A DNA stretch of 64,000 bases from Thuidium tamariscinum (taxonomy: Eukaryota > Streptophyta > Bryopsida > Hypnales > Thuidiaceae), in assembly GCA_947034885.2 (NCBI GenBank), contig OX344749.2, positions 48,327,682 to 48,391,681 of the forward strand, given 5' to 3'. A model generated the notes under the pieces. It saw only the letters and a list, made by a program, of their open reading frames with translations, had not been told where the DNA came from and did no database searches. Position 1 is the stretch's first letter. The number at the start of each line of letters is the position of its first letter. This document shows, one piece after another, positions 1-62,319 of the stretch. The translations under genes and the position numbers were made by a program.

Positions 1-7
1 GGATTTT

Positions 8-78
8 GGGGTACCACGAGGCACACCAAAAAAGCCCGTCGAATCTAACTTAGTTTTGTGCGGTGCCTTGTGGTACCC
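8..78. repeat. Imperfect inverted repeat (hairpin)
   Basis: GGGGTACCACGAGGCACACC at 8-27 pairs with GCGGTGCCTTGTGGTACCC at 60-78 with a few mismatches and a loop of about 32 bases. The outer motif GGGGTACYACGAG recurs at the ends of the perfect palindrome at 451-546, so the two may belong to one short foldback family. No target duplication was identified. Confidence 0.55.
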
Positions 79-450
79 ATGGATTCAGCATTTTTTTTTG
101 GTTCATCAATCCTGATCTTCAATTAACACTCAGTCAGTATCGAGTTGGAGGGAGGCGGAGTTGCCGCCTGGCACTTCAAGCTTGCTGACAGGTGATTACA
201 GTAGAGTTGAATGTCTGGTCCTGTATTTGAATTCGTCCTGAATCTGAAGCCTCAAGATTTGTTTCTGACATTTTTACTAAGCACCTTCGGTGATAACTTA
301 CTGTTCAGGGACATAGATTTCGCTTTGAGTTTCAAATAATTGCCAAGAACTAACTCTCTTCACCTTGTAGTTCTGAAGTTATTGATGAAAGCGAGCAAAT
401 GGAAAGATTTGCATTGTCCTTTTGATAAATTTTCCGTTAATTGACAAAAT

Positions 451-546
451 TGGTGAGAATCTGGGGTACTACGAGCCGAGTCAGAAAACCAAGTCGGATC
501 CGACTTGGTTTTCTGACTCGGCTCGTAGTACCCCAGATTCTCACCA
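451..546. repeat. Perfect 96-bp palindrome, no spacer
   Basis: Every base from 451 to 498 pairs with its partner from 546 back to 499, checked in blocks of ten. The centre is GTCGGATCCGAC (BamHI site at 496-501) and the outer arms are TGGTGAGAATCTGGGGTACT and its complement. There is no loop, so a single strand folds into one long hairpin. It lies upstream of the exon at 852-906, so probably in an intron of the gene ending near 1562. It may be a young foldback insertion or a fold created during replication. Confidence 0.9.
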
Positions 547-851
547 TTTCTTTGAATCTAGATTCTTCTCACAATTAATCAGGTCAAGGGTAATTGACTT
601 TGCCAGTACTTAATTAGTCTTCTATACAATGGACTTCATTTTTATCATGAACCTCACGATCTCTCATGTTTCCTTTCATAGATGTCTATTATTATTTGAG
701 CTCCATATAGCCGTTGATATTTTCAGTCCTGGCCTCATTTGTCACAAGCCTTCAATTGAAGGTCAAATTTTTCTACTTTACTTTTTGAAAGTTTGTTCAT
801 CTTTCAATCCTATTATCTATAGGTTCTGATCTTGATTACTTTTTGATTAGG

Positions 852-1562
852 CCACTACTGGAGGTACCAGCGCTGTTGAAGGCAGTGATCAATTGCAGCA
901 ACAAGTATGCCATTCCTCATCCATTCAATTTTTTTAAGAAGTGTCTTAATTTTCTTATGATTGAAATAGCTTAATCATTGTGGTACTACGTATAACATCA
1001 AATCTATTTATTTTGAATTTCATGACATAATATACATTTGGATAATGGCCAAATTTCATTTGCATGAAATTATGACTTTAAGATTGATTGCAAATTGTTG
1101 CACTACATTGTCTAGAGTGGCCAAGGAAGGGGCAAACGACAGAAGGTTTCATCCACAAAGAATCAAGGTCCTGAAGTGCAAGGTGCTCTTTCTATGGAAG
1201 TTGGTGGATCCTCTGAGCCCCAGAAATCTCCACAACCTGTTGCAACCCTCTCCACGCACCAAAGCAATGTGGATCAAAACTTGGTGAGTTTCGATGACGT
1301 CATGGATGCTGTAGAGCGAGCCGTTGATGCATTTGAAACAAGTGTACTCAGTGGAAATAGGGGTGGTGGTCCGTGGTTCTCATCTTTCAGTTCTGAGATG
1401 GATTGCCCTTCTGACATGGAGCTTTCAAATTCTAGTAGTGTTGAGTTTTTTGACTTGTATACAGGGGAGAGTGTGGTGAACATGGACTTATTTTAGTCTA
1501 ATGAAGTTATCATCCTCAGCTCAGATTCTGATGAGGATGATGATGTGCAAATCATAGATTAG
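852..1562 (+). CDS. 3' end of unrecognised gene; SIM-like acidic tail after an in-frame TAG
   Basis: I do not recognise this protein. Two exons are visible: 852-906 (preceded by TTAG, followed by GTATGC; encodes 18 residues with a Gln-rich end) and 1116 onward (preceded by TCTAG). They join in phase 0. The second exon starts with a short basic segment (GQGRGKRQK) that could be a nuclear localisation signal, followed by a Ser/Pro-rich stretch and an acidic region (SFDDVMDAVERAVDAFE). A TAG at 1494-1496 stops the frame, yet the same frame continues to a second TAG at 1560-1562 and encodes EVIILSSDSDEDDD, the classic shape of a SUMO-interacting motif followed by acidic residues. That suggests the real C terminus lies after the TAG and that the TAG is a recent nonsense change, a sequencing error or a read-through site. 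Upstream exons are not resolved; a possible one ends at a GTGATT donor at 192. Confidence 0.45.
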
Positions 1563-1782
1563 GTGGATTTGTTATCTTAAAAATAGCAAACGGCATACCT
1601 TGGTCTTCCCTCACTGAGGTTACTTTAGTATTCCAAATGTGCTTGAACCTCCCTTTGCAAGTACGATTTTTCCCTTGAAGTAAAGCATTTTCTTTTAAAT
1701 GTACCAACTTCTTCACTGCAATTTCTATTGCTCTTGTTTCCTGTGAATATTGAATTTTTTACACTTAAATTTGAACTCTTAG

Positions 1783-4700
1783 ATGGACATCTCCCCTACC
1801 AAAACCGTGGAAGAGGAAACCATCTTCGGAACTCCGAACTCTCAAATCTCAAAACAGCCCAAGATTGAACAAGGAAAAGGAAAAGGAGAAGGAGAGGAAG
1901 ATGAGGAGGACATGGAGATTGTCATTCAAGACCGTGAGGAAGAGAAAGTGATGTCGGAAGAAGAACTCCGGCACATTCAAAAAGGTGATGTTGTGAAGCT
2001 TTTGGGACAACTTCAGATGAAGCCCGAGGAGGTATTTCGAATGCATATTCCGTTGTGCAGACTTGTGACAATGCCAATGGTTAGACCGGCATTGGCATCT
2101 GATATTGCAAAGCTTGAACAAGAGTTTGCAGCTGGAGGATACCAAGATGGAGCTGCAGTTTTCTATGTGTCAGCTACAAACGAAGTTGGAAACACTAAAG
2201 AGTTCACCCAACAAGAGATGGACAGTTGGGACCCCATTTGGAAGGAGAAGAATGAAGTCTTCAAACAGAAGATTGAGTCTAAACCAGAGCTTCAGTTCTT
2301 GAAGAACTTGAAGCTCTTCATTTGCGATGGGAACCACAGACGAGTTGCTTGGATGAATTACATCTCCAAGCACTCAAACAAGCACTGCAATGTGGACTCT
2401 ATTATATTGGATACGAAAGGGCGCAATGAACTTGTCATGCAAGTCATGCATGATGTTAACAAGTAAGTTTTTTCTTTCATAATGCTTTTATTTTTGAAAG
2501 ACTTAATCAATTTAGTTTTCTTACTTCATTGGAGATAGTTTACTTCGTTGGCTAATATTGTTTTGAATGGCTTTCAGGTCTGTAGAAGACTCCCATGTAA
2601 AGACAAACTTGGTACACACCTTGTACCAAGTTCAGAAGTATGGAATGTTACCCATAGCAAAGTTTGCAGCTTTACTTAGGCCTGCGGAGAGGAAGAGGTG
2701 CCTGGAGCACAAGGTGACCAAAAAATGGTATTCGATACAACCCGAGGTCTTTACATCTTTCATCTTCAGGGTAAGCTCCTTCAACTTGATTTTAATTAAA
2801 TTATTTTTGTTTTACAAAATGATCATTGCTCATGTGAACTTTATATCTATCTGGGATGCATGTGCAGCAAGAGATTTCTCAAGCAGAAGATGTAGCAGTA
2901 AGAAGGTACATGGAGGCCACACAAGAGACTGTAAGTGTACCACTTCAGGCAACTAAAGCGATGAGGTTGGGAGCAAGGGAACGAATAAAGGCGGCCATGG
3001 TGAAGATGTTTAAATTGCTAGCGATGGCCAACCCAGGAAATGGAGAGGACTTCCTAAAAGAGGTACAATCCATTAGCGTTTAGTCTCTAACTTCACTTAA
3101 ATTGCTCAAAAGATAGTTCGAATCCATATTGAAAAAATACTTGAAATCTTCTTGTAGGTGGAAAAGCATTGGGGAAATTATGAAGTGCCTGAAATGACTT
3201 TGGAGAAGTTCCAGTTGGTCACCACTTGCAAGATGACTGCAAAGCACAAGACAAAGATACTTCAATGCTGGAACTCTTCCACGCTTTCACGCGAAGCAAG
3301 GAAGTTGCCACCAAAACTTGTCTCCGAAATCTTATTTCCTCAATTTCTGGTGAAGTGCACTTGGTATGTTGGGGTAAGTGTTCAATATCTTTGCAAGAGT
3401 GATTTTGAGATTAGGAAATTTCTAAACCCTCTTTGATGCCTTCAAATTGGCCTCAGTAATGATTAAGGTCGATATGAATTCATATCTTGTTTCATTAATT
3501 TTTTTCTGATCTTTTTTGTTCTATGAATTACTGTATATTGATTGTGTTACATTTTCAGATAGAAGATGCTGTAGTGGAGTTCTTTGACAAAATTGTAAAA
3601 GAAGAAAACTTTTCCATCGACTACAACACAAAACCAGAACCAGAGCGACTACCAGAGTACATAGAAGGATGGAGGCAGAAGATTTGGGAACATGGCTTCA
3701 TGAATTACTTCAAGGGCCAAAAGTACTTCAAGAAGGGACAAACTTTCTCATCTCACGAAGGCTCTAACGCTGTGGTGCGCAGAGTCCTTTATCGGTATGT
3801 CATTTTCTATGGTACTTGGAATTTTGTGGCATTATTGTATAGTTTGTAATTATAGAAATTCATTAGCATCTTGTAATTCATTCTAAATCTTAAATTTGTC
3901 TTGTCTTGGCTATTTTTCCACCCTTCAATGGATTTTGATTTATAACTTCTATGTTATATTTTGCTCATACTCTTTCATTTTGAGATTGAACAGTGCTCCA
4001 TATAACTCATTATGATTGAATTACAGGTACTTCAAGTTAGAACTTGAAGCAAAGGGGGCCATTGCAAAATTGGACCTCCCTCAATTCCTTCCACGCTTCC
4101 TCGACCGCAACTCGCCTTCATGTATATTCAGCCCACATCAATTGCGCACCTATACTATTGCTCATCTCTCTGGTGCGGGCTGGTACTTGGACTGCACACT
4201 GGAGTTCACTCATCATTCGGAGGTTGAGCTCAGGGCATCATTGGAGGGCAAGGGATAGTAGATTTGGAGGCTGTTGACGAGTTCATCGGCATGGATGATG
4301 ATGCCAGGAGAAGGGCCATCAACAAGAGGGATGCACTGAACCGAAAGAAAGAAGTGAAGAATCAACTCATTGTGGAGGCCAAGGAGAAAAAGCAGGCGGA
4401 GAAATCAGCAAAGAAGGCGGAGAAAGAGGCCGAGAAGGCGGAGAAAGAAGCCGAGGGGGAGAAGGAAGAGAAGACTAAGGCCAAGGGAAAGAAGAAAGTG
4501 GAAGAGAGAGGGCAAGTCTTAGTTTCCTCCACTGTGGATCAAACACAAGGCGGAGTACCAAGGAAAGTCACCATCTCACAGCTCACTGAAGATGTCATTT
4601 CACGAGTCACACAAGCCATGGTCCTCTCCGACGATGATGTGCCAAAGACTGAGGATTTAATCCTTAATATATGCATTGAGGACATTGCCATGGATATGGA

Positions 4701-6563
4701 GGACAAAAGGCAGGGTGTCTACAACGAGGTCTTGAAGTACTTGGTTAAGGTGATCTCTTCAAACATGTTTGCTAAAATTTATTTTACTTATTGTCAATGA
4801 TATGAATGCTATGTACCAAAGTTGCTATAATGAAACATTGAAGAAGAATTTCTATATGGTCCACAATTACATATTTTATTCAAGAATTTTTGTATTTGAA
4901 AAAATTAGTAAGACAACAAGGCAGAATTTACAATTCTGTCGGATTCGACAGAATCACATAAACCACTATTTTGTTCTGTATTTCCGTACTCAACATTACC
5001 CACATTCATATGGTTTTGTTTTCTCTAGAAATAGTTGAACATATTGACAAATGTAATTTCGTTTTCAGCTCAGCCTTTTATTAAAATGACTCTTAATTTC
5101 CTAATGTTGTACTAAATATTAAGAATTTGCTTTGAAAGGTAGAAAAGTATGCAATATTAATATACTGAGATTCTATTGAAATGTGCTTTTGCAAATGGCA
5201 GTGGGCAAAACTCACATGTTTGAAGGTGTGGCAAATGCAAGGGCTGGTGTTGATGTCATCTTTATTGACTGTCCAGAGAACTTACCTGTGCCAAGCATTT
5301 CTCTTACGTCGAAGGAGGTGCCAAATTGGAATGCGGATTTAGAAGCTAATGCTTTGCAATCGACATGCACCTTTGCAGTAGAGCATCTGCACGATGATGG
5401 ATGCATCATTGTGTTTCACTCCTTCAGCATTGCATCCAGGGAAGATCTAGCAGGAGTTTGTGAAGCATTTGACTTCAAGAAGAAGAAGAACTGGCTAAGC
5501 ATGAACCGCATGCATCTCACCTTGCCTATGGACACCACAAAGACGGTAATTTCAGTACAAATGTTTAAGTTTTTGTCACCTATTTTCTTTTAAAATTCTA
5601 TTCATTGATCTCTAATGTTCTTGTCATATATGTTGCAGACACAGAAGTTTGGGGTCACTCTCCTTGTTAAGGACCTCAAAGAAAAAGGCAAATCCAAATT
5701 TTATTTCAAGCGTACTGAGATGATGAAGAAGGCTGGGGTGGATGTCGAGAATGATGACATGCTGATCAATTATATGCATACAGATGACATCTCCATAAAT
5801 GGGAAGAAGCCATGGAGAGGCCCACGCGAAAAAGATCCGAGGTTCTTCACCCTCCTCCTTGAAGCCACGAGTAATGAAGGCGATGTCATTGTGGATTGCA
5901 CGGCATCCACAGGTTTGTCTTCAATTCTAATATTTCACACTTCTATATCATTGTAACAATTTTGTCATCTCTCTAACACATTTTCATTACATGAATGCCC
6001 TAGGTGCTTGCATTTTGGCTTGTAGAGGAACTGGCCGCAACATTCTAGCTTTCGAGGGGGACAAAGATGTTTTCAATGCCATTTTGAAGCCCATGAAGAA
6101 GTCATCAACATCAATGGCAGTGGCTCCAACCCTCGAGACAACAGTGGACTTGACAATGGATGTGCAAGACGCCCCTATTGTGCCTCACAAGTTTGTTCAC
6201 AAGGGAAAATCCAGTAAGTAAGTGGAAACTTCTTTCATTCTTTATTATTTTTCTTCATATCACATTTGCAAAGACTAATATAATGTCTTCAATTTTTGCA
6301 GAGGTTGTGGATTGATCTTGAGAGAGGTCATGGAACAAAATCAAAGGCTTGTCGTTAGTCCAGAGAAGCCTTTCGAGCTACCACCCTATGCTGAGCAGAT
6401 GGCAAGTGCCTTTGCAAATTTTGGTTGTTCCAAATCAAAACGCCACAAAGACACTTACGCCCTCAATGTCTTACAGTTTATAGATGCTTCTGCATCTGAG
6501 GGACGGGAGTCCTCAGAGTCCTCTACAGGGTCAGATTTAGTGACTGAGTCCACAGCCACGTAG
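1783..6563 (+). CDS. ParB-like / permuted DNA methyltransferase-like fusion gene, ten exons
   Basis: Exons read by me: 1783-2462, 2578-2770, 2868-3062, 3158-3373, 3559-3794, 4027-4749, 5202-5545, 5639-5912, 6004-6217, 6302-6563, about 1,110 codons. All proposed introns are GT-AG. The start ATG directly follows a TTAG, so an upstream non-coding exon is possible. Order of parts: acidic Glu-rich N terminus; ParB/Srx-like domain (residues about 80-220) with DGNHR at 182-186; helical middle; Lys/Glu-rich helix in exon 6; methyltransferase-like region with VDVIFIDCPEN (motif IV position, 5267) before DCTASTGACILACRGTGRN (motif I position, 5894-6042), the permuted beta order; Ser/Thr-rich tail. Two problems: exon 6 needs a one-base shift near 4252-4258, and the exon 6/7 phases (0 versus 1) disagree. 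It is therefore either a young pseudogene or a real gene with assembly indels. The ParB plus N4/N6-methylase pairing is known from bacteria and phages; the eukaryotic role is unknown to me, and loss of DPPY argues against catalysis. Confidence 0.7.
2017..2420 (+). other. ParB/sulfiredoxin-like domain of the fusion gene
   Basis: Exon 1 reads PEEVFRMHIPLCRLVTMPMV, then, about 100 residues on, LKLFICDGNHRRVAWMNYI. The spacing and the phrase (hydrophobic)-x-DG-x-HR-x-x-A are those of ParB N-terminal domains, where the HR-containing box binds or hydrolyses nucleotide. In ParB proteins the usual phrase is close to G-x-x-R or G-x-HR. The His185/Arg186 pair is intact here, so nucleotide (CTP/ATP) binding could survive. 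The assignment rests on motif and layout, not on an alignment. Confidence 0.6.
4252..4258 (+). other. Apparent 1-bp frameshift inside exon 6
   Basis: The frame entering exon 6 runs ...HHSEVELRASLEGKG and hits TAG TAG at 4256-4261. The frame used by the rest of the exon (VDLEAVDEFIGMDDDARRR...) is open back to 4228 and is offset by minus one. The two fit end to end at the G run AAGGGATAG, as expected from loss of one G. A short intron is an alternative (TGAGCTCAG at 4224-4232 looks like an acceptor), but any donor would leave an intron of about 60 bases. Confidence 0.6.
4339..4500 (+). other. Lys/Glu-rich charged helix (coiled-coil-like)
   Basis: This part of exon 6 encodes a run dominated by Lys, Glu and Ala with repeats of the form KKAEKEAEKAEKEAE, typical of a long charged single helix or coiled coil. 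It separates the ParB-like and methyltransferase-like halves and is probably a linker or dimerisation segment. The repeats are A/G-rich in DNA and could be an expansion. Confidence 0.6.
4933..4954. repeat. Short hairpin in intron 6 with GTCGGATTCGAC core
   Basis: ATTCTGTCG and CGACAGAAT flank GATT. The same core appears exactly (GTCGGATCCGAC) at the centre of the palindrome at 451-546, and TCGGATCCGAC with a similar left flank (ACAATTC) occurs at about 6790-6808 after the gene. These may be relics of one short foldback element. Confidence 0.45.
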
Positions 6564-9500
6564 ATTCTTGAGATTGACTAATCTCTTGAGTCTTACTATT
6601 GTATATTGGATTTTATTTGGATTGGATTTGTGTGTTTTATGGCTACTTCTGGAAGTCTCAAATTTCTCTTTCTATTTATTTGATTTTTGTTTTGAAAATA
6701 TCTAAGGCAATGGCTCTTGCCAGTTCTCCCTAAACCTACACCAAAAATAAATAAATAAATAAATTTTGAGGCAAGAAGGCAACACATACAATTCCATCGG
6801 ATCCGACAAACCCTTACATATTGACCATCCAATTCTTTCTCTTCATTATACATCTCAAAATCAATCTTCTTTCAACAACACCTAGATTGACTTATTTAGT
6901 GAATGAGTTGCATCAAATTAGAGTATTTCCAATGCCTTTTGTGATTTCAAGGTTTGGGTATTTATGAGATGTTCTTTGCTGTTTTCATTTTGCCTTCACA
7001 TTCCTTAATTTATCTCTATATAAAAAAGATTTTATATTCTAAATTAAAGCTAATCGACAATATAAATTTAAGTGCTTTGATTCTCACAATTAGACTTTAT
7101 ATCCCTACTCTTGTGTATACAATGTCCATGATCATAGGTGTATGCAAAGAGAAAATGAAGAAGAAAACAAAAAGTGACTTCTGTAGTCACATCTTTGAAA
7201 TAGACATCATATCTTCTTTGTCGCCTAAACGTTGAAAGTCCACGATTATAGGTACTAAACTTTAATTTTTGTTACCCTAAAATCCACGATCATAGGTGGT
7301 CAACTCAAATTTTTTTCAAAATAAATTTCCCGTTCACAAGCTCACAGGCTCATAGGCTCCTGCTCCCTCGCTCGCTTGCTAGCAACCCTGTTTCAGATGT
7401 TTAAAGTTTATCATTTAGACTAAGCAGACGAATTGGAAGTACACTTCAGAGTACCAAGGCAATTTCTATTTCTATTTTTAAACTAAAAACCCTATAGAAT
7501 TAGCTTAGAGGTTTTCAAAAACACATCACATGTAGAAATCCCATTTAAAACAAGAAAGATAGAAGTGGATGAAGTTTATTAATAAATTTGGACAAAAACT
7601 AGATAAGTCTTGAAACTTTGGAACAAGTTGAGTAAACTAAAATAAAGCTAATAATTAGAACTCAAAAGTCAAAACCAAAATAAACACTAAATTTAAAATT
7701 ATAGATTAGGAGTAATTAGAAGATGAAGTTTGGATGAACCGATTAGCGGTTCAACTTCATCCGCTCATAACTTTTAATAGGAATGTCTGATTAGGTTGAA
7801 TTTTATAGTTTTAAAAAGAGGAATTAATCCTTTACAAGATAGGGTAATTAGATTTAGTCTGACCTAAATTTAGAAAAATAACTACAACGACTTGATTGTA
7901 GAGGTTAATCACGTAATATCTTGCATTTTGAAGTATGTTTGATTAGATTTTTGCATGCTTTGAGTGTACTTAGGAGTTAGAAAGATCCATTGCTTGGAAG
8001 GCACAATGGACAATCATTATAACACTCATAGACTAAAAACTATAAAAAATTAAAAGAACCTTGTTGTGTTTCTTTTTTTAGCAAAGGTGGGTAAAAAAGT
8101 GCTCATACAATGTCCTGACCGAATGTATAGCGAACACCTTGTGGTGAAATACCCATCCGCATCGATTATCTAGATCAAACCAATGGTCACACATCGACCC
8201 TTCATAGGCTGCCAAAGACTTTTGCTTTAAGCCAAAGACTTCAATATTAGCAAATTCTGAACGTGCATTTTGTAACGAGTTATGTACAAGCCTAAAGCAG
8301 TGATAGCCTTAGTCTAAAATTTGTACCAGTCCTACACCAATCCTAAACTTAAAAGAAGGGAAATGAATGAAAATTGGCTTATGGAATATAATATATACAA
8401 GTACCCTCCAAAGAAAAGAGACCTCCAATGTGATATTTCTTTGCGATTTAGTATATTTGAAGCTTCTCTCCATTCACTTATAACGGTGTTATATCAAGCA
8501 AAATGCATCACTGATTCGGAATTTCGTAATGGGACCCTAATTAGACATATGAGGGGCCTTCAAGCTTGTCCCATACACGGCCGTCCAAGAACCCTCTTTA
8601 AGTTAAAGCTCACTGCCCATGAATTCATAAACGTGGGACAATCAGAGACTTTTGCTTTAAAGTTCTCCGTGATGACAAATTTGAGAAGTATCCTGAAGGC
8701 CTCTCAATCTCAAATGATCAACCCTTATATAAAGGTGCCTTTCACTTTGACTGATGTCTAATAAAATAAGCACAACTACAAGGAGTGCATATGAAATAGT
8801 TGTAAACTATTTCTCATGTTGAGGCGTGGCCTACCCAACCTTCTTGTGATCTCCTCTTTACTCATCTATTATGTGATAACTTTCTCACAAGTCTTTCCAA
8901 TTTCTATTTTAATTTACGACCCCTAAATCCTGTCTAGCACCAAATAAATGAAAAAACAAACAAGTGATTAACAACAATAGGAGATGTACAAGGAGTAGCA
9001 AAATGCACAACTAACTTAGACACGTATACTCACACGGGATGAAGAGGCAAAGCGTAAGCACTCATGTGAGCAATTCTAACTCCACCCTTGAGCTAGAACT
9101 TAACACACAAGTTCTGATGGCAATTTTAAGTAGTAAATTCTAAGGTGATCAAAATAAGCGCTTTCCAAGCAATGGACACTCAAATGATGTGATTTGTTTA
9201 TACAAAAGTTTAAAAAGTGTAAAAATTAGTTTAATTTATGGGTTAATTATTAGCTAATTGAATGTCAAAGTTTATGGATTCTTATCAAAGTTCTATCTAA
9301 TCCTATCTCTAAATCATATTTTAAGGTTTCTAAAATGGTAAAGTAAATGAAATTTGCAAATTCCCTTCAAAATTTATGTAAGGATGAAAAACAACCTCTA
9401 AAATGCCCTTAGAACTTCATCCATTGTTTAAAAATAGCAATTTAGGTTGAGTTTACTCCAAATTTTATCCCTGGAATCTTAATGAATTCGAGGCTTAGTT

Positions 9501-38180: not shown

Positions 38181-38609
38181 TTGAAAGTAGAAATAAAAGT
38201 AAAATTAAAAAATACTACCAATCAATTAGGATTAAGAATCCAATTTTGAAAATATTACCAATCAAAGGTTAAGTCTTGAAGGGTATTTTTTGTAGATTAC
38301 TTTATTTTAGAATAAAACAGATAGATTAAGATAGATTAGGATTATCCCAAAGAAATTACAATTATAAAATCATCTATAGGCAAGAAAATTAAAACATCTT
38401 TAAAGATATTAGTATTTATCAACAAATTGTTGCCTAAATATTTGCTTAGATAAGGCTAGCCTTGGTAAAGGCATTTACAAAATAATTGAAAGGAATTAAA
38501 GGTAGGAATAGAAGTTAGAAAGATTAATTGCTTAGAAGACTGATTTGGATTACACATAATTAGACACCCACTACAATCAAGGTATAATATAGAAGAACCC
38601 GGTTGTGTA

Positions 38610-40003
38610 CAGTGGGGTACCAATCAAAATGTCGTTTTCGCATCCGCTGTGAGAAATTTTTTGGTACTGCCAACTTTGGAAGCCTCCCGCGAGCTCAAAA
38701 ATTGGTATTTTACCACGAAATTTTACCATAGCATAATCTTTAAGTTAACTATATGTATGCCAAATTTCAAGGCCAAAAGACTCACCAAAAAAAGTTATTC
38801 AAAATCTACCAACATGGGTAGTGGTGAGAAACATTTCACTACTTTCAACTTTGACACCTTCCTAAGGATTGATTTTTTTTTCTTTTGCCATGAAATTTTT
38901 GTCATGAAACAATCTATATTTTTTTAATATGTATAAAAAATTTCAAGGTAAAAGAATTTTTTTTAAGAAGATATTTGAAATCTCCCAACAAGTGTAGTTT
39001 TGAGAAAATTTTCACAATTTCCAACTTTGACACCCTCCCAAGGGCTGAAAAATTGTTTTTTTACCATGAATTTTTTTTTGTGAAGTTAAGTCTATGTTGA
39101 TAATATGTGCTCCAAATTTCAAGTTCAAATGAATTACCAAAAAAAAGATATACATAATCTCCCAACATGTGTAGTTGTGAGAAAATTTTCACTATTGCTG
39201 ACTTTGACACCCTCCCAAGGGCTGAAAATTTGTCTATTTAACATGAATTTTTTTGAATAAGATCAACTTTATGTTGATAATATATTTTCCAAATTTCAAG
39301 TTCAAAACACTTACCCAAAAAAAGATATTCAAAATCTCTCAACGTGTGTAGTTGTGAGGTTGAGTTTTTACATTTGTGTCAAACTTTGCTCCACAAAATA
39401 ACACTATACTAAGGGCTCAAAAACTCCTCCTCACAACTACACATGTTGGGAGACTTTGTATATCTTTTTTTTGGTAATTCATTTGAACTTGAAATTTGGA
39501 GCACATATTATCAACATAGACGTAACTTCTCAAAAAAAAATTCATGGTAAGAAACCAATTTTTCAGCCCTTGGGAGGGTGTCAAAGTTGGAAATTGTGAA
39601 AATTTTCTCAAAACTACACTTGTTGGGAGATTTCAAATATCTTCTTAAAAAAAATTCTTTTACCTTGAAATTTTTTATACATATTAAAAAAATATAGATT
39701 GTTTCATGACAAAAATTTCATGGCAAAAGAAAAAAAAATCAATCCTTAGGAAGGTGTCAAAGTTGAAAGTAGTGAAATGTTTCTCACCACTACCCATGTT
39801 GGTAAATTTTGAATAACTTTTTTTTGGTGAGTCTTTTGGCCTTGAAATTTGGCATACATATATTTAACTTAAAGGTTATGCTGTGGTAAAAATTTCGTGG
39901 TAAAATACCAATTTTTGAGCTCGCGGGAGGTTTCCAAAATTGGCAGTACCGAAATTTTTCTCACAGCGGATGCGAAAACGACATTTTGATTGGTACCCCA
40001 CTG
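38610..40003. mobile_element. Family E foldback element made of 176-177-bp monomers, TSD TA
   Basis: Ends CAGTGGGGTACCAATCAAAA and TTTTGATTGGTACCCCACTG flanked by TA at 38608-38609 and 40004-40005, as in Tc1/mariner-type insertion. Left of about 39425, a monomer with the phrase AACTTTGACACCCTCCCAAG (start points 38675, 38851, 39027, 39204, about 39381) is repeated directly every 176-177 bp. Right of it the same monomer is repeated in inverse orientation (near 39577, 39753, 39929). No transposase. Confidence 0.85.
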
Positions 40004-49407: not shown

Positions 49408-50442
49408 TCTAGACCTAGAAGAGAAAAGAATAAAAAAAAAATAGCTCAAAATATCAAACTTTGTCAAGCTTAATAATTTTATATTGAAGTTGAAGATAAG
49501 ATTAGTTCAACATATTGTATCTGGCACAAGAGGAAGTTGGGTCAAGGTTAGTGAAGCCCTGTTCATCTAGTCATCTTGAATCTTTGACATTATTCCCCTT
49601 GATTGACACATTGTTCTTAGTGATTGATACACGTTCCTCTCAATTTACAATTAATTCCCTTATATATCCCATAAAATATAGTAGAAAAATTCACATGTTA
49701 TTCAATGCCTTCAAATTCTTTGACTTTTATTTCACATAGCTTCATAATCCATTTGATTTGTGTATTTGGAGAAGAAAAGAGAAGTTATTTATATATGAGG
49801 GGTGGTAGGAGGTAAGACAACTTGTGTGGGATATGTAAATTAGAATAAATTTGAGCTTAACCACTCATAGTGAAGTAAAAACTAGGAATTGTATTTACTT
49901 TCAAGCCTCATTTTGGCATAGTAGAATAGTTATTTTCAAATAAAATTGAACTAAGAAAAGTTGTTGAATCAAGTTAAATTTCATCTTCAAAAATTTGTTT
50001 GCAATTTTGACACTCCAATAAGAAGTTATGAACAAAATTCAAAGAGGGGGTTGGAAGAGACATTTTCTTTGAAGTGTCAAAATCACAAATAGATTTTTGA
50101 GGATGAAAGTTATTTGATATAACAACTTTTTTTAGTTTAAAGTTTTTGAAAATAGCTACAGATTATGTCAAAACGAGGTGTGAAATTATACACAATTCCT
50201 AGTTTTTACTTCACTATGAGTGGTTGAGCTCAAATTCATTCTAATTTACATATCTTCCATAGCTTGCTTAAACTCCTACTACCCTTCTTGTATAAATAAA
50301 TTCTCCTCTCATCCTCAAATTTACAAAATATATGGCTCTTGAGCTATGAAAAATAATAGTTACTGAATTTAAAGGCTTTGAATAATATGTGGAATTTTCT
50401 AAATCTAATGGGATAATTATCTACTTCTAGTACCTCCTTGTA
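49408..50442. other. Stretch without recognised gene
   Basis: Part of it is an inverted repeat: CACTCATAGTGAAGTAAAAA near 49862 pairs with TTTTTACTTCACTATGAGTG near 50202, and AAATTTTTGAAGATGAAA-type sequences face each other between them. This looks like another, poorly bounded foldback of about 400-500 bp. Confidence 0.45.
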
Positions 50443-51848
50443 CAATGGGGTACCAATCAAAATATCATTTTCGAATTTGCAGTGAGAAAATTTTTAGTAT
50501 CACTAACTTTGAAAGCCTCCCGAGAGCTCAAAAATTGGTATTTTATCATTAAATTTTTACCACAAAATCATCTTTAAGTTAATCATATGTATGCCAAATA
50601 TCAAGGGCAAAAGATTGACCAAAAAAAAGTTATTCAAAATCTACCAACATGGGTAGTGGTGAGAAACATTTCACTACTTTCAACTTTGACACCTTCCTAA
50701 GGATTGAGTTTCTTTTTCTTTTTCCATGAAATTTTTGTCATGAAACAATATCTATATTTTTAACATGTATAAAAAATTTCAAGGTAAAAAAAGTTTTTTT
50801 GAGAAGATATTTGAAATCTCTCAACATGTGTAGTTTTGAGAAAATGTTTACAATTGCCAACTTTGACAGTTGACACCATCCCAAGGGCTGAAAAATTGTT
50901 TTTTTACCATGAATTTTGTTTTGTGAAGTCATATATATGTTGATAATATGTGATCCAAATTTCAAGTTCAAATGAATTACCAAAGAAAAAATATACAAAA
51001 TCTCCCAACATGTATAGTTGTGAGGAGGAGTTTTTTGAGCCCTTAGTATAGAGTTATTTTGTGGACCAAAGTTTGACACGAATGTAAAAACTCAACCTCA
51101 CAACTACACATGTTGAGAGATTTTGAATATCTTTTTTTGGGTAAGTGTTTCGAACTTGAAATTTGGAACATATATTATTAATATAAATTTGATCTCATTC
51201 AAAAAATTTCATGTTAAATAGACAAATTTTCAGCCCTTGGGAGAGTGTCAAAGTTGGCAATAGTGAAAATTTTCTCACAACTACACATGTTGGGAGATTT
51301 TGTATATTTTTTCTTTGGTAATTCATTTGAACTTGAAATTTGGATCACATATTATCAATGTATATATGACTTCACAAAACAAAATTCATGGTAAGAAACC
51401 AATTTTTCAGCCCTTGGGAGGGTGTCAAAGTTGGCAATTGTAAACATTTTCTCAAAACTACACCTGTTGAGAGATTTCAAATATCTTCTCAAAAAAACTT
51501 TTTTTACCTTGAAATTTTTTATACATGTTAAAAACATAGATATTGTTTCATGACAAAAATTTCATGGAAAAAGAAAAAGAAACTCAATCCTTAAGAAGGT
51601 GTCCAAGTTGAAAGTAGTGAAATGTTTCTCACTACTATCCATGTTGGTAGATTTTGAATAACTTTTTTTTGGTCAATCTTTTGGCCTTGAAATTTGGCAT
51701 ACATATAATTAACTTAAAAATGATGCTGTGTTAAAAATTTCGTGATAAAATACTAATTTTTGAACTCTCAAGAGGCTTTCAAAGTTGGTAGTACTAAAAT
51801 TTTTCTCACTGCAAATCCGAAAACGACATTTTGATTGGTACCCCACTG
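50443..51848. mobile_element. Family E foldback element, second copy, opposite orientation, TSD TA
   Basis: Ends CAATGGGGTACCAATCAAAA and TTTTGATTGGTACCCCACTG flanked by TA at 50441-50442 and 51849-51850. Same 176-177-bp monomers, but here the shorter monomer array is on the left and the longer one on the right, so it is the reverse complement of the copy at 38610-40003. Confidence 0.85.
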
Positions 51849-52268
51849 TACATTCTAGAGAATTTATAAGCCTAAATTTTCTTAGAAAAGTACCTTGACT
51901 TGAACGTGGGCTAGAAACTTGAATATAGCCTCGAGTTTCTTTTGGGTGTCGTATTCTAATTTTCCCTCTGACTAGTATAATTATCCCTGCTCGAGCTACC
52001 CCTGTCCATTGAAAATAACATTTTAACCTATAACTTCTTATGGACAAATTCAAATGAAAAAAAAGTTAGTAAAGTCGCAAGATGTTCCTCATCTTTACCT
52101 CCAAAGGAAATTTCAAAAAATATAGTGGATTTTTCACTTTGTAGTTACGTGCCGAAAATGTCTATGCCACCAAAAAATATAGTTTGGTTGTTCATGGGTT
52201 AAATTATCCTCATTTCAATTACAAACCGTAGTCAACAATAACATACATAACTTTAGAATACAAATTGT

Positions 52269-58400: not shown

Positions 58401-62319
<3,919 letters not shown>

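Follow-up and report, generated by a model that had tools for sequence, protein, structure and literature searches.

A gene joining ParB-like and methyltransferase-like parts as a probable accessory gene of a multi-copy DNA transposon in the moss Thuidium tamariscinum

The gene and the state of the window copy

The stretch of DNA considered here (the window) comprises 64,000 nucleotides of contig OX344749.2 of the moss Thuidium tamariscinum, and carries at 1783-6563, on the + strand, a ten-exon gene whose product appears to join a ParB/sulfiredoxin (ParB/Srx)-like part to a permuted DNA methyltransferase-like part (Table 1). With high confidence we assign it, as an accessory gene, to a large multi-copy DNA transposon that has target-site duplications of 10 bp and a transposase on the opposite strand; the copy in the window is decayed and some others are intact. 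The motifs read in the gene are CDGNHRR, DVIFIDCPEN and VDCTASTG-ACILACRGTGRN; LFICDGNHRRVAW is present in exon 1 and DVIFIDCPEN in exon 7, and VDCTASTGACILACRGTGRN is the product of the exon 8-exon 9 junction. By exon projection, six other copies in the genome have the same ten exons and keep the majority of the splice signals, from which it follows that the gene model is not a chance reading.

An original prediction, made from the letters of the window alone, had proposed a ten-exon gene with these motifs, and in this respect it is borne out. What it did not mention is that the window copy is not intact: exon 6 is shifted in frame by one nucleotide and the acceptor AG ahead of exon 7 is gone, such that this copy is unable to make the full protein. 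A second frame break near 5207 was considered and rejected, since it amounts to a misplaced splice boundary together with the lost acceptor. Intronless copies were likewise rejected, as the loci concerned, when read, hold the same introns.

Table 1. Coordinates of the gene and of the parts of the element in the window
Feature	Position	Strand	Remarks
Right-hand part of 15,605-bp transposon copy	1..7390		8,215 bases lie before window base 1; left end located in upstream flank
Long palindrome centred on TCGGATCCGA	440..557		59 nt per arm, arms 93% complementary, without spacer
TCGGATCCGA site, exact	494..503
Small second gene	1116..1562	+	Broken by stop at 1494-1496 in window copy
Exon 1	1783-2462	+	Acidic N-terminus and putative ParB/Srx-like domain with CDGNHRR
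Exon 2	2578-2770	+	ParB-like part continues
Exon 3	2868-3062	+
Exon 4	3158-3373	+
Exon 5	3559-3794	+
Exon 6	4027-4749	+	Lys/Glu-rich linker; site of the frame shift
TCGGATCCGA site, one mismatch, intron 6	4939..4948		Exact in 25/30 copies
Exon 7	5195-5545	+	Methyltransferase motif IV, altered (DCPEN); preceding AG lost
Exon 8	5639-5912	+	Motif I begins (VDCTAST-)
Exon 9	6004-6217	+	Remainder of motif I region (-GACILACRGTGRN)
Exon 10	6302-6563	+	C-terminus, stop codon
TCGGATCCGA site, exact, after stop codon	6797..6806
Right terminal inverted repeat	7348..7390	-	27/43 positions match left end; reached by 0/1000 random internal 43-mers
10-bp target-site duplication TTTCAGATGT	7391..7400		Exact match to the 10 bases preceding the element on its left

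The transposon

Four elements (W, that of the window, and X, Y and Z) were traced end to end and measure 15.4-16.4 kb, and in all four the ParB-methylase gene and the transposase occur together on opposite strands. The right-hand boundary is sharp, in that homology between copies ends at 7389/7390 in all four close copies compared, and the homology over 7326-7390 ends at 7390 in one of two distant copies. Each of the four elements has imperfect terminal inverted repeats (27-29 of 43 positions), as do Mutator-like elements (MULEs), and each is flanked by a target-site duplication of 10 bp, in one case with one mismatch, which falls within the 8-11 bp of that group. The ‘mobile’ of the original prediction is thus upheld by matching termini, target-site duplications, a transposase and many copies, and the same features count against its ‘domesticated’, the gene being that of a multi-copy transposon.

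The transposase itself is probably Mutator-like and SWIM-like. A pattern of D, D and CxxH is that of a MULE transposase with a SWIM finger. The SWIM profile scores against the transposases of X and Z at E=0.15 and 0.17, both under the cut-off; Pfam has no match for the 741-amino-acid transposase open reading frame of X or the 583-amino-acid piece of Z, and comparison of the transposase with the PDB gave no useful match.

Copies in the genome and selection

Exon 7 matches about 64 places in the genome, among the matches listed. Six other copies were examined in full, and in two of them (L031 and L033) the gene is intact, encoding 1,112 amino acids in each case, the remaining four (L032, L034, L035 and L036) having stops, frame breaks or an insertion in the gene. 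The ratio of nonsynonymous to synonymous substitution (dN/dS), by simple counting over 1,083-1,104 codons, lies at 0.11-0.14 in all four pairs, about 0.12 overall, synonymous sites being close to saturated in two of the pairs (L031/L042 and L031/L044); the close pair L031/L033 gives 0.14 as well. Between L031 and L035, identity is 60.5-77.7% in exons and 48.6-61.5% in introns. Judged from these comparisons, the gene has been maintained as a protein through copying and bears signs of purifying selection.

The copies are unevenly placed. Of 54 exon-7 places of the close family among the matches listed, 17 fall on one contig of 17.5 Mb (C11, about 5% of the genome), a local pile-up on what is perhaps a repeat-rich or sex chromosome.

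The methyltransferase-like part

The original prediction of a permuted methylase is reasonably supported where the fold is concerned. Exons 7-10 of the window copy match Pfam N6_N4_Mtase (PF01555), the profile proposed there as a check, at E=4.8e-4 and 20.6 bits, though below the curated cut-off of 26.7, as is the 19.1 bits of L031; the NCBIfam CcrM profile gives E=0.0022 and 16.9 bits (cut-off 830). Among structures, the DpnA-type (5hfj type) are matched at E=5.6e-4, and for the corresponding part of L031 there are matches to seven families of PHROG methyltransferases (E 1.1e-5 to 8.4e-3). In an alignment of four rows, one of which is a hand composite, N6_N4_Mtase is matched by all four with E no higher than 1 (5e-4 at best) and RNA_pol_inhib by two of them (E 0.0014 at best); the four-row profile is weaker against the PDB, at E=0.02. 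Motif IV precedes motif I within one domain, the order of DpnA-type methylases. The similarity comes mostly from the motif I region, that of motif IV aligning weakly (6 bits).

A profile search gave 37 homologues of this part at E up to 0.1, as open reading frame pieces of 122-224 amino acids, whose motifs were read by eye. Motif IV is covered by 21 of them; DCPEN is exact in 11, the others having variants such as DCLEN and DFPEN, and the catalytic (D/N/S)PP(Y/F/W) is found in none of the 21. Similarly, 9 of the 14 that cover motif I have DCTA(S/A)TG and none has DPFxGSG. The intact copies L031 and L033 have DCPEN and some decayed copies (L036, L043) near variants. The first Asp of both motifs is mostly kept. 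Since the database homologues share it, the change is old and kept, and not a product of decay in the window copy. Given established amino-methyltransferase chemistry, the replacement of the catalytic motif makes the usual catalysis unlikely. The methylase part may accordingly have lost its writing function.

The ParB/Srx-like part

ParB-methylase fusions occur in bacteria and phages. For the exon 1 region here, the ParB half of the original prediction, a ParB/sulfiredoxin fold is indicated weakly but consistently. CDGNHR is kept in 104 of 120 homologues, among the matches listed. A Pfam scan of 56 members of this part found DUF1015 in five (best E 0.002), KMP11 in five, Nol11_C in three, and DndB and DUF6551 in one each; DUF1015, DndB and DUF6551 we take to be ParB/Srx-like. 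No family and no PDB sequence matches the part itself significantly. Profile searches of PDB sequences gave none at E up to 10 or, with the other profile, only a ribosomal protein at E=0.19, and a single-sequence protein search returned one weak, unspecific match. An AlphaFold model of exon 1 (seven rows) has a predicted local-distance difference test score of 44.5, and its best fold match is at E 0.21, with nothing ParB-like in the top 50. Two profile scans of viral contigs found no relatives.

A recurring palindrome

The upstream stretches of the window, L031, L034 and L036 (all four tested) contain long palindromes with arms of 44-59 nt, 88-96% complementary, centred on TCGGATCCGA or a close variant; a stricter palindrome scan finds one in W, three in X, two in Y and none in Z. 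Of the 10-mer itself, W and Z have three occurrences each, X six and Y four; the window has two, as against a shuffled mean of 0.01. Even when one mismatch is allowed, it is absent from 23.4 kb of flanks and from window 7391-64000. An unbiased scan of all non-simple 10-mers leads to the same place, in that only five reach at least two per element in all four elements, namely TCGGATCCGA and four that overlap it. All four elements have it in the transposase intron, the distant Z included; this intron shows no BLAST similarity between X and Z, yet both carry the 10-mer. Its other places are the upstream region, intron 6 and, Z apart, the 3' flank. By analogy with VANC in Arabidopsis VANDAL elements, TCGGATCCGA is a candidate self-recognition site.

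Comparison with known systems

The closest counterpart is an accessory protein of the Ectocarpus transposon Sola1-1_Ec32, described in the excerpts of PMC12477816 as ParB-like plus DNA methyltransferase with predicted N4/N6 activity; green and red algal cases are cited there (Iyer 2011; Petroll 2025), and the excerpts name no target sites for such proteins. The two have the same two domains and similar lengths (1,104 amino acids vs 1,112 here), and each is encoded opposite to the transposase strand in a giant multi-gene transposon. Compared by description, however, that element is a Sola1 of 21.5 kb in a brown alga, whereas the present one lies in a land plant with a probably SWIM-like transposase and a 10-bp target-site duplication; moreover, where N4/N6 activity is predicted there, the catalytic motif here is altered. 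Among the literature searched, as far as excerpts go, PMC12477816 alone was found to describe a ParB-methyltransferase protein in a transposon, and on that account the kind is already known, and the original prediction, which knew of no described function for such a plant protein, is out of date on this point. What is new against this literature is the land-plant host, the apparently different type of transposon, the consistently altered catalytic motif and the candidate target site.

In Arabidopsis, VANC21 binds a 9-bp motif in the non-coding regions of its own VANDAL21 element and induces loss of methylation (PMC5735166; PMC10398659). VANC, as is probably the case here, is the product of an accessory gene in a Mutator-type element, with a short motif repeated in the element's own introns and upstream; the VANC motifs stand in same-orientation tandem repeats whereas those here are palindromes, the proteins being compared by description, and anti-silencing, shown for VANC, is proposed here. 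With the beta-class N4/N6 methyltransferases (PF01555; DpnA-type 5hfj) the gene shares the permuted motif order and similarity at motif I and the preceding stretch, but differs in the lost catalytic motif, the sub-cut-off Pfam score, the introns and a long extra middle region. The Marchantia N4-cytosine methyltransferase (PMC8885841) is likewise a plant protein with a 4mC (N4-methylcytosine) methyltransferase domain of bacterial origin, although, in the excerpts, without extra N- or C-terminal domains.

Possible function and alternatives

On balance, the explanation that we consider slightly more likely than not is that of a transposon accessory gene whose protein binds sites in its own element, contains a methylase fold that does not write, and regulates the element. 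The ParB/Srx-like part would take the protein to TCGGATCCGA in the transposase intron, the upstream region, intron 6 and the 3' flank; the methyltransferase fold, altered from DPPY to DCPEN and from DPFxGSG to DCTASTG, would serve as a non-writing cofactor- or DNA-binding module, a reader or scaffold; and the element would in this way come under sequence-specific regulation, the likeliest form being that it is shielded from silencing by the host, as VANDAL21 is by VANC. From binding onwards, all of these steps are ones that we infer. Binding of the protein to its own TCGGATCCGA sites we rate at slightly under an even chance. An anti-silencing role, argued from VANC, is tentative and on the unlikely side, and slightly less likely again is the fullest version, a land-plant transposon with its own parS/ParB-like self-recognition in which a retired methylase fold acts as reader and the element is kept from silencing via TCGGATCCGA. 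The family offers two or more intact copies, indications of purifying selection, a consistently altered active site and a 10-bp candidate site, and self-recognition by transposons, as proposed, can therefore be put to a direct test in a land plant. Were it true, VANC-like anti-silencing would have been reached by a second route, independent of the first.

Several observations weigh against this explanation. Pfam PF02195, the other profile that the original prediction had named, has no match in the ParB part. Of the 447 10-mers of intron 6, 53 are conserved as well as the site or better among close copies, such that its conservation there may come from recent copying, and TCGGATCCGA is lacking at the partial loci L042, L043 and L045 of the subfamily.

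Among the alternatives, a transposition cofactor is unlikely but fares best: a ParB-like clamp would load at the palindromes and assemble or bridge the element ends, or limit transposition. That the recurrent sites are palindromic, and that the gene accompanies the transposase in all four elements, would suit such a role; the exact sites, however, lie away from the termini, none being closer than 2.1 kb to the left end or than about 0.58 kb to the right, and a protein of this kind is also present in a Sola1 element (excerpts of PMC12477816). An active writer, binding its own element and depositing N4-methylcytosine or N6-methyladenine as suggested in those excerpts for the Ectocarpus relative, would account for the amino-methyltransferase fold, its motif order and the mostly kept first Asp, but we regard it as improbable given DCPEN and DCTA(S/A)TG, or near variants, in place of DPPY and DPFxGSG in copies and homologues (0/21 and 0/14). 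Equally improbable is that the palindromes are merely structural, as cruciforms or hairpins, with no link to the protein; they are very long and their arms variable, yet in the transposase intron, in intron 6 and in the 3' flank the same 10-mer has a shorter context. A domesticated host gene that acts on DNA or chromatin is very improbable, and a single such gene is rejected, since an active gene of an element would be expected to show purifying selection just as much, and there are dozens of dispersed copies, target-site duplications with a transposase in four elements, and a broken copy in the window.

Other features of the element and the window

The small frame upstream of the gene, broken in the window copy, is open at L034:2515-2934, in L035 (2688-3104 of the reversed locus) and at L036:2474-2893, and is kept in both subfamilies. 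It ends in an acidic stretch (e.g. IIILSSDEDEDED, EIIILSSDEDEDEDVQIID) that presumably resembles a SUMO-interacting motif, and the frame of L034 has no Pfam match.

Outside the element, a near-perfect palindrome (centre CATAACATTTTGATGTTATGG) lies at window 30461 and does not contain TCGGATCCGA. The regions 38600-40000 and 50400-51860 have direct repeats about 177 bases apart and inverted arms of 395-551 nt, 93-98% complementary, and are perhaps another repeat element present twice. Finally, window 61831-62316 is part of a class III peroxidase gene (best PDB match seed coat peroxidase 1fhf, E=6.8e-26). Enzymes of this class are a mark of land plants, which agrees with a land-plant host. Of this peroxidase gene the open reading frame at 61143-61538 may be a further exon.

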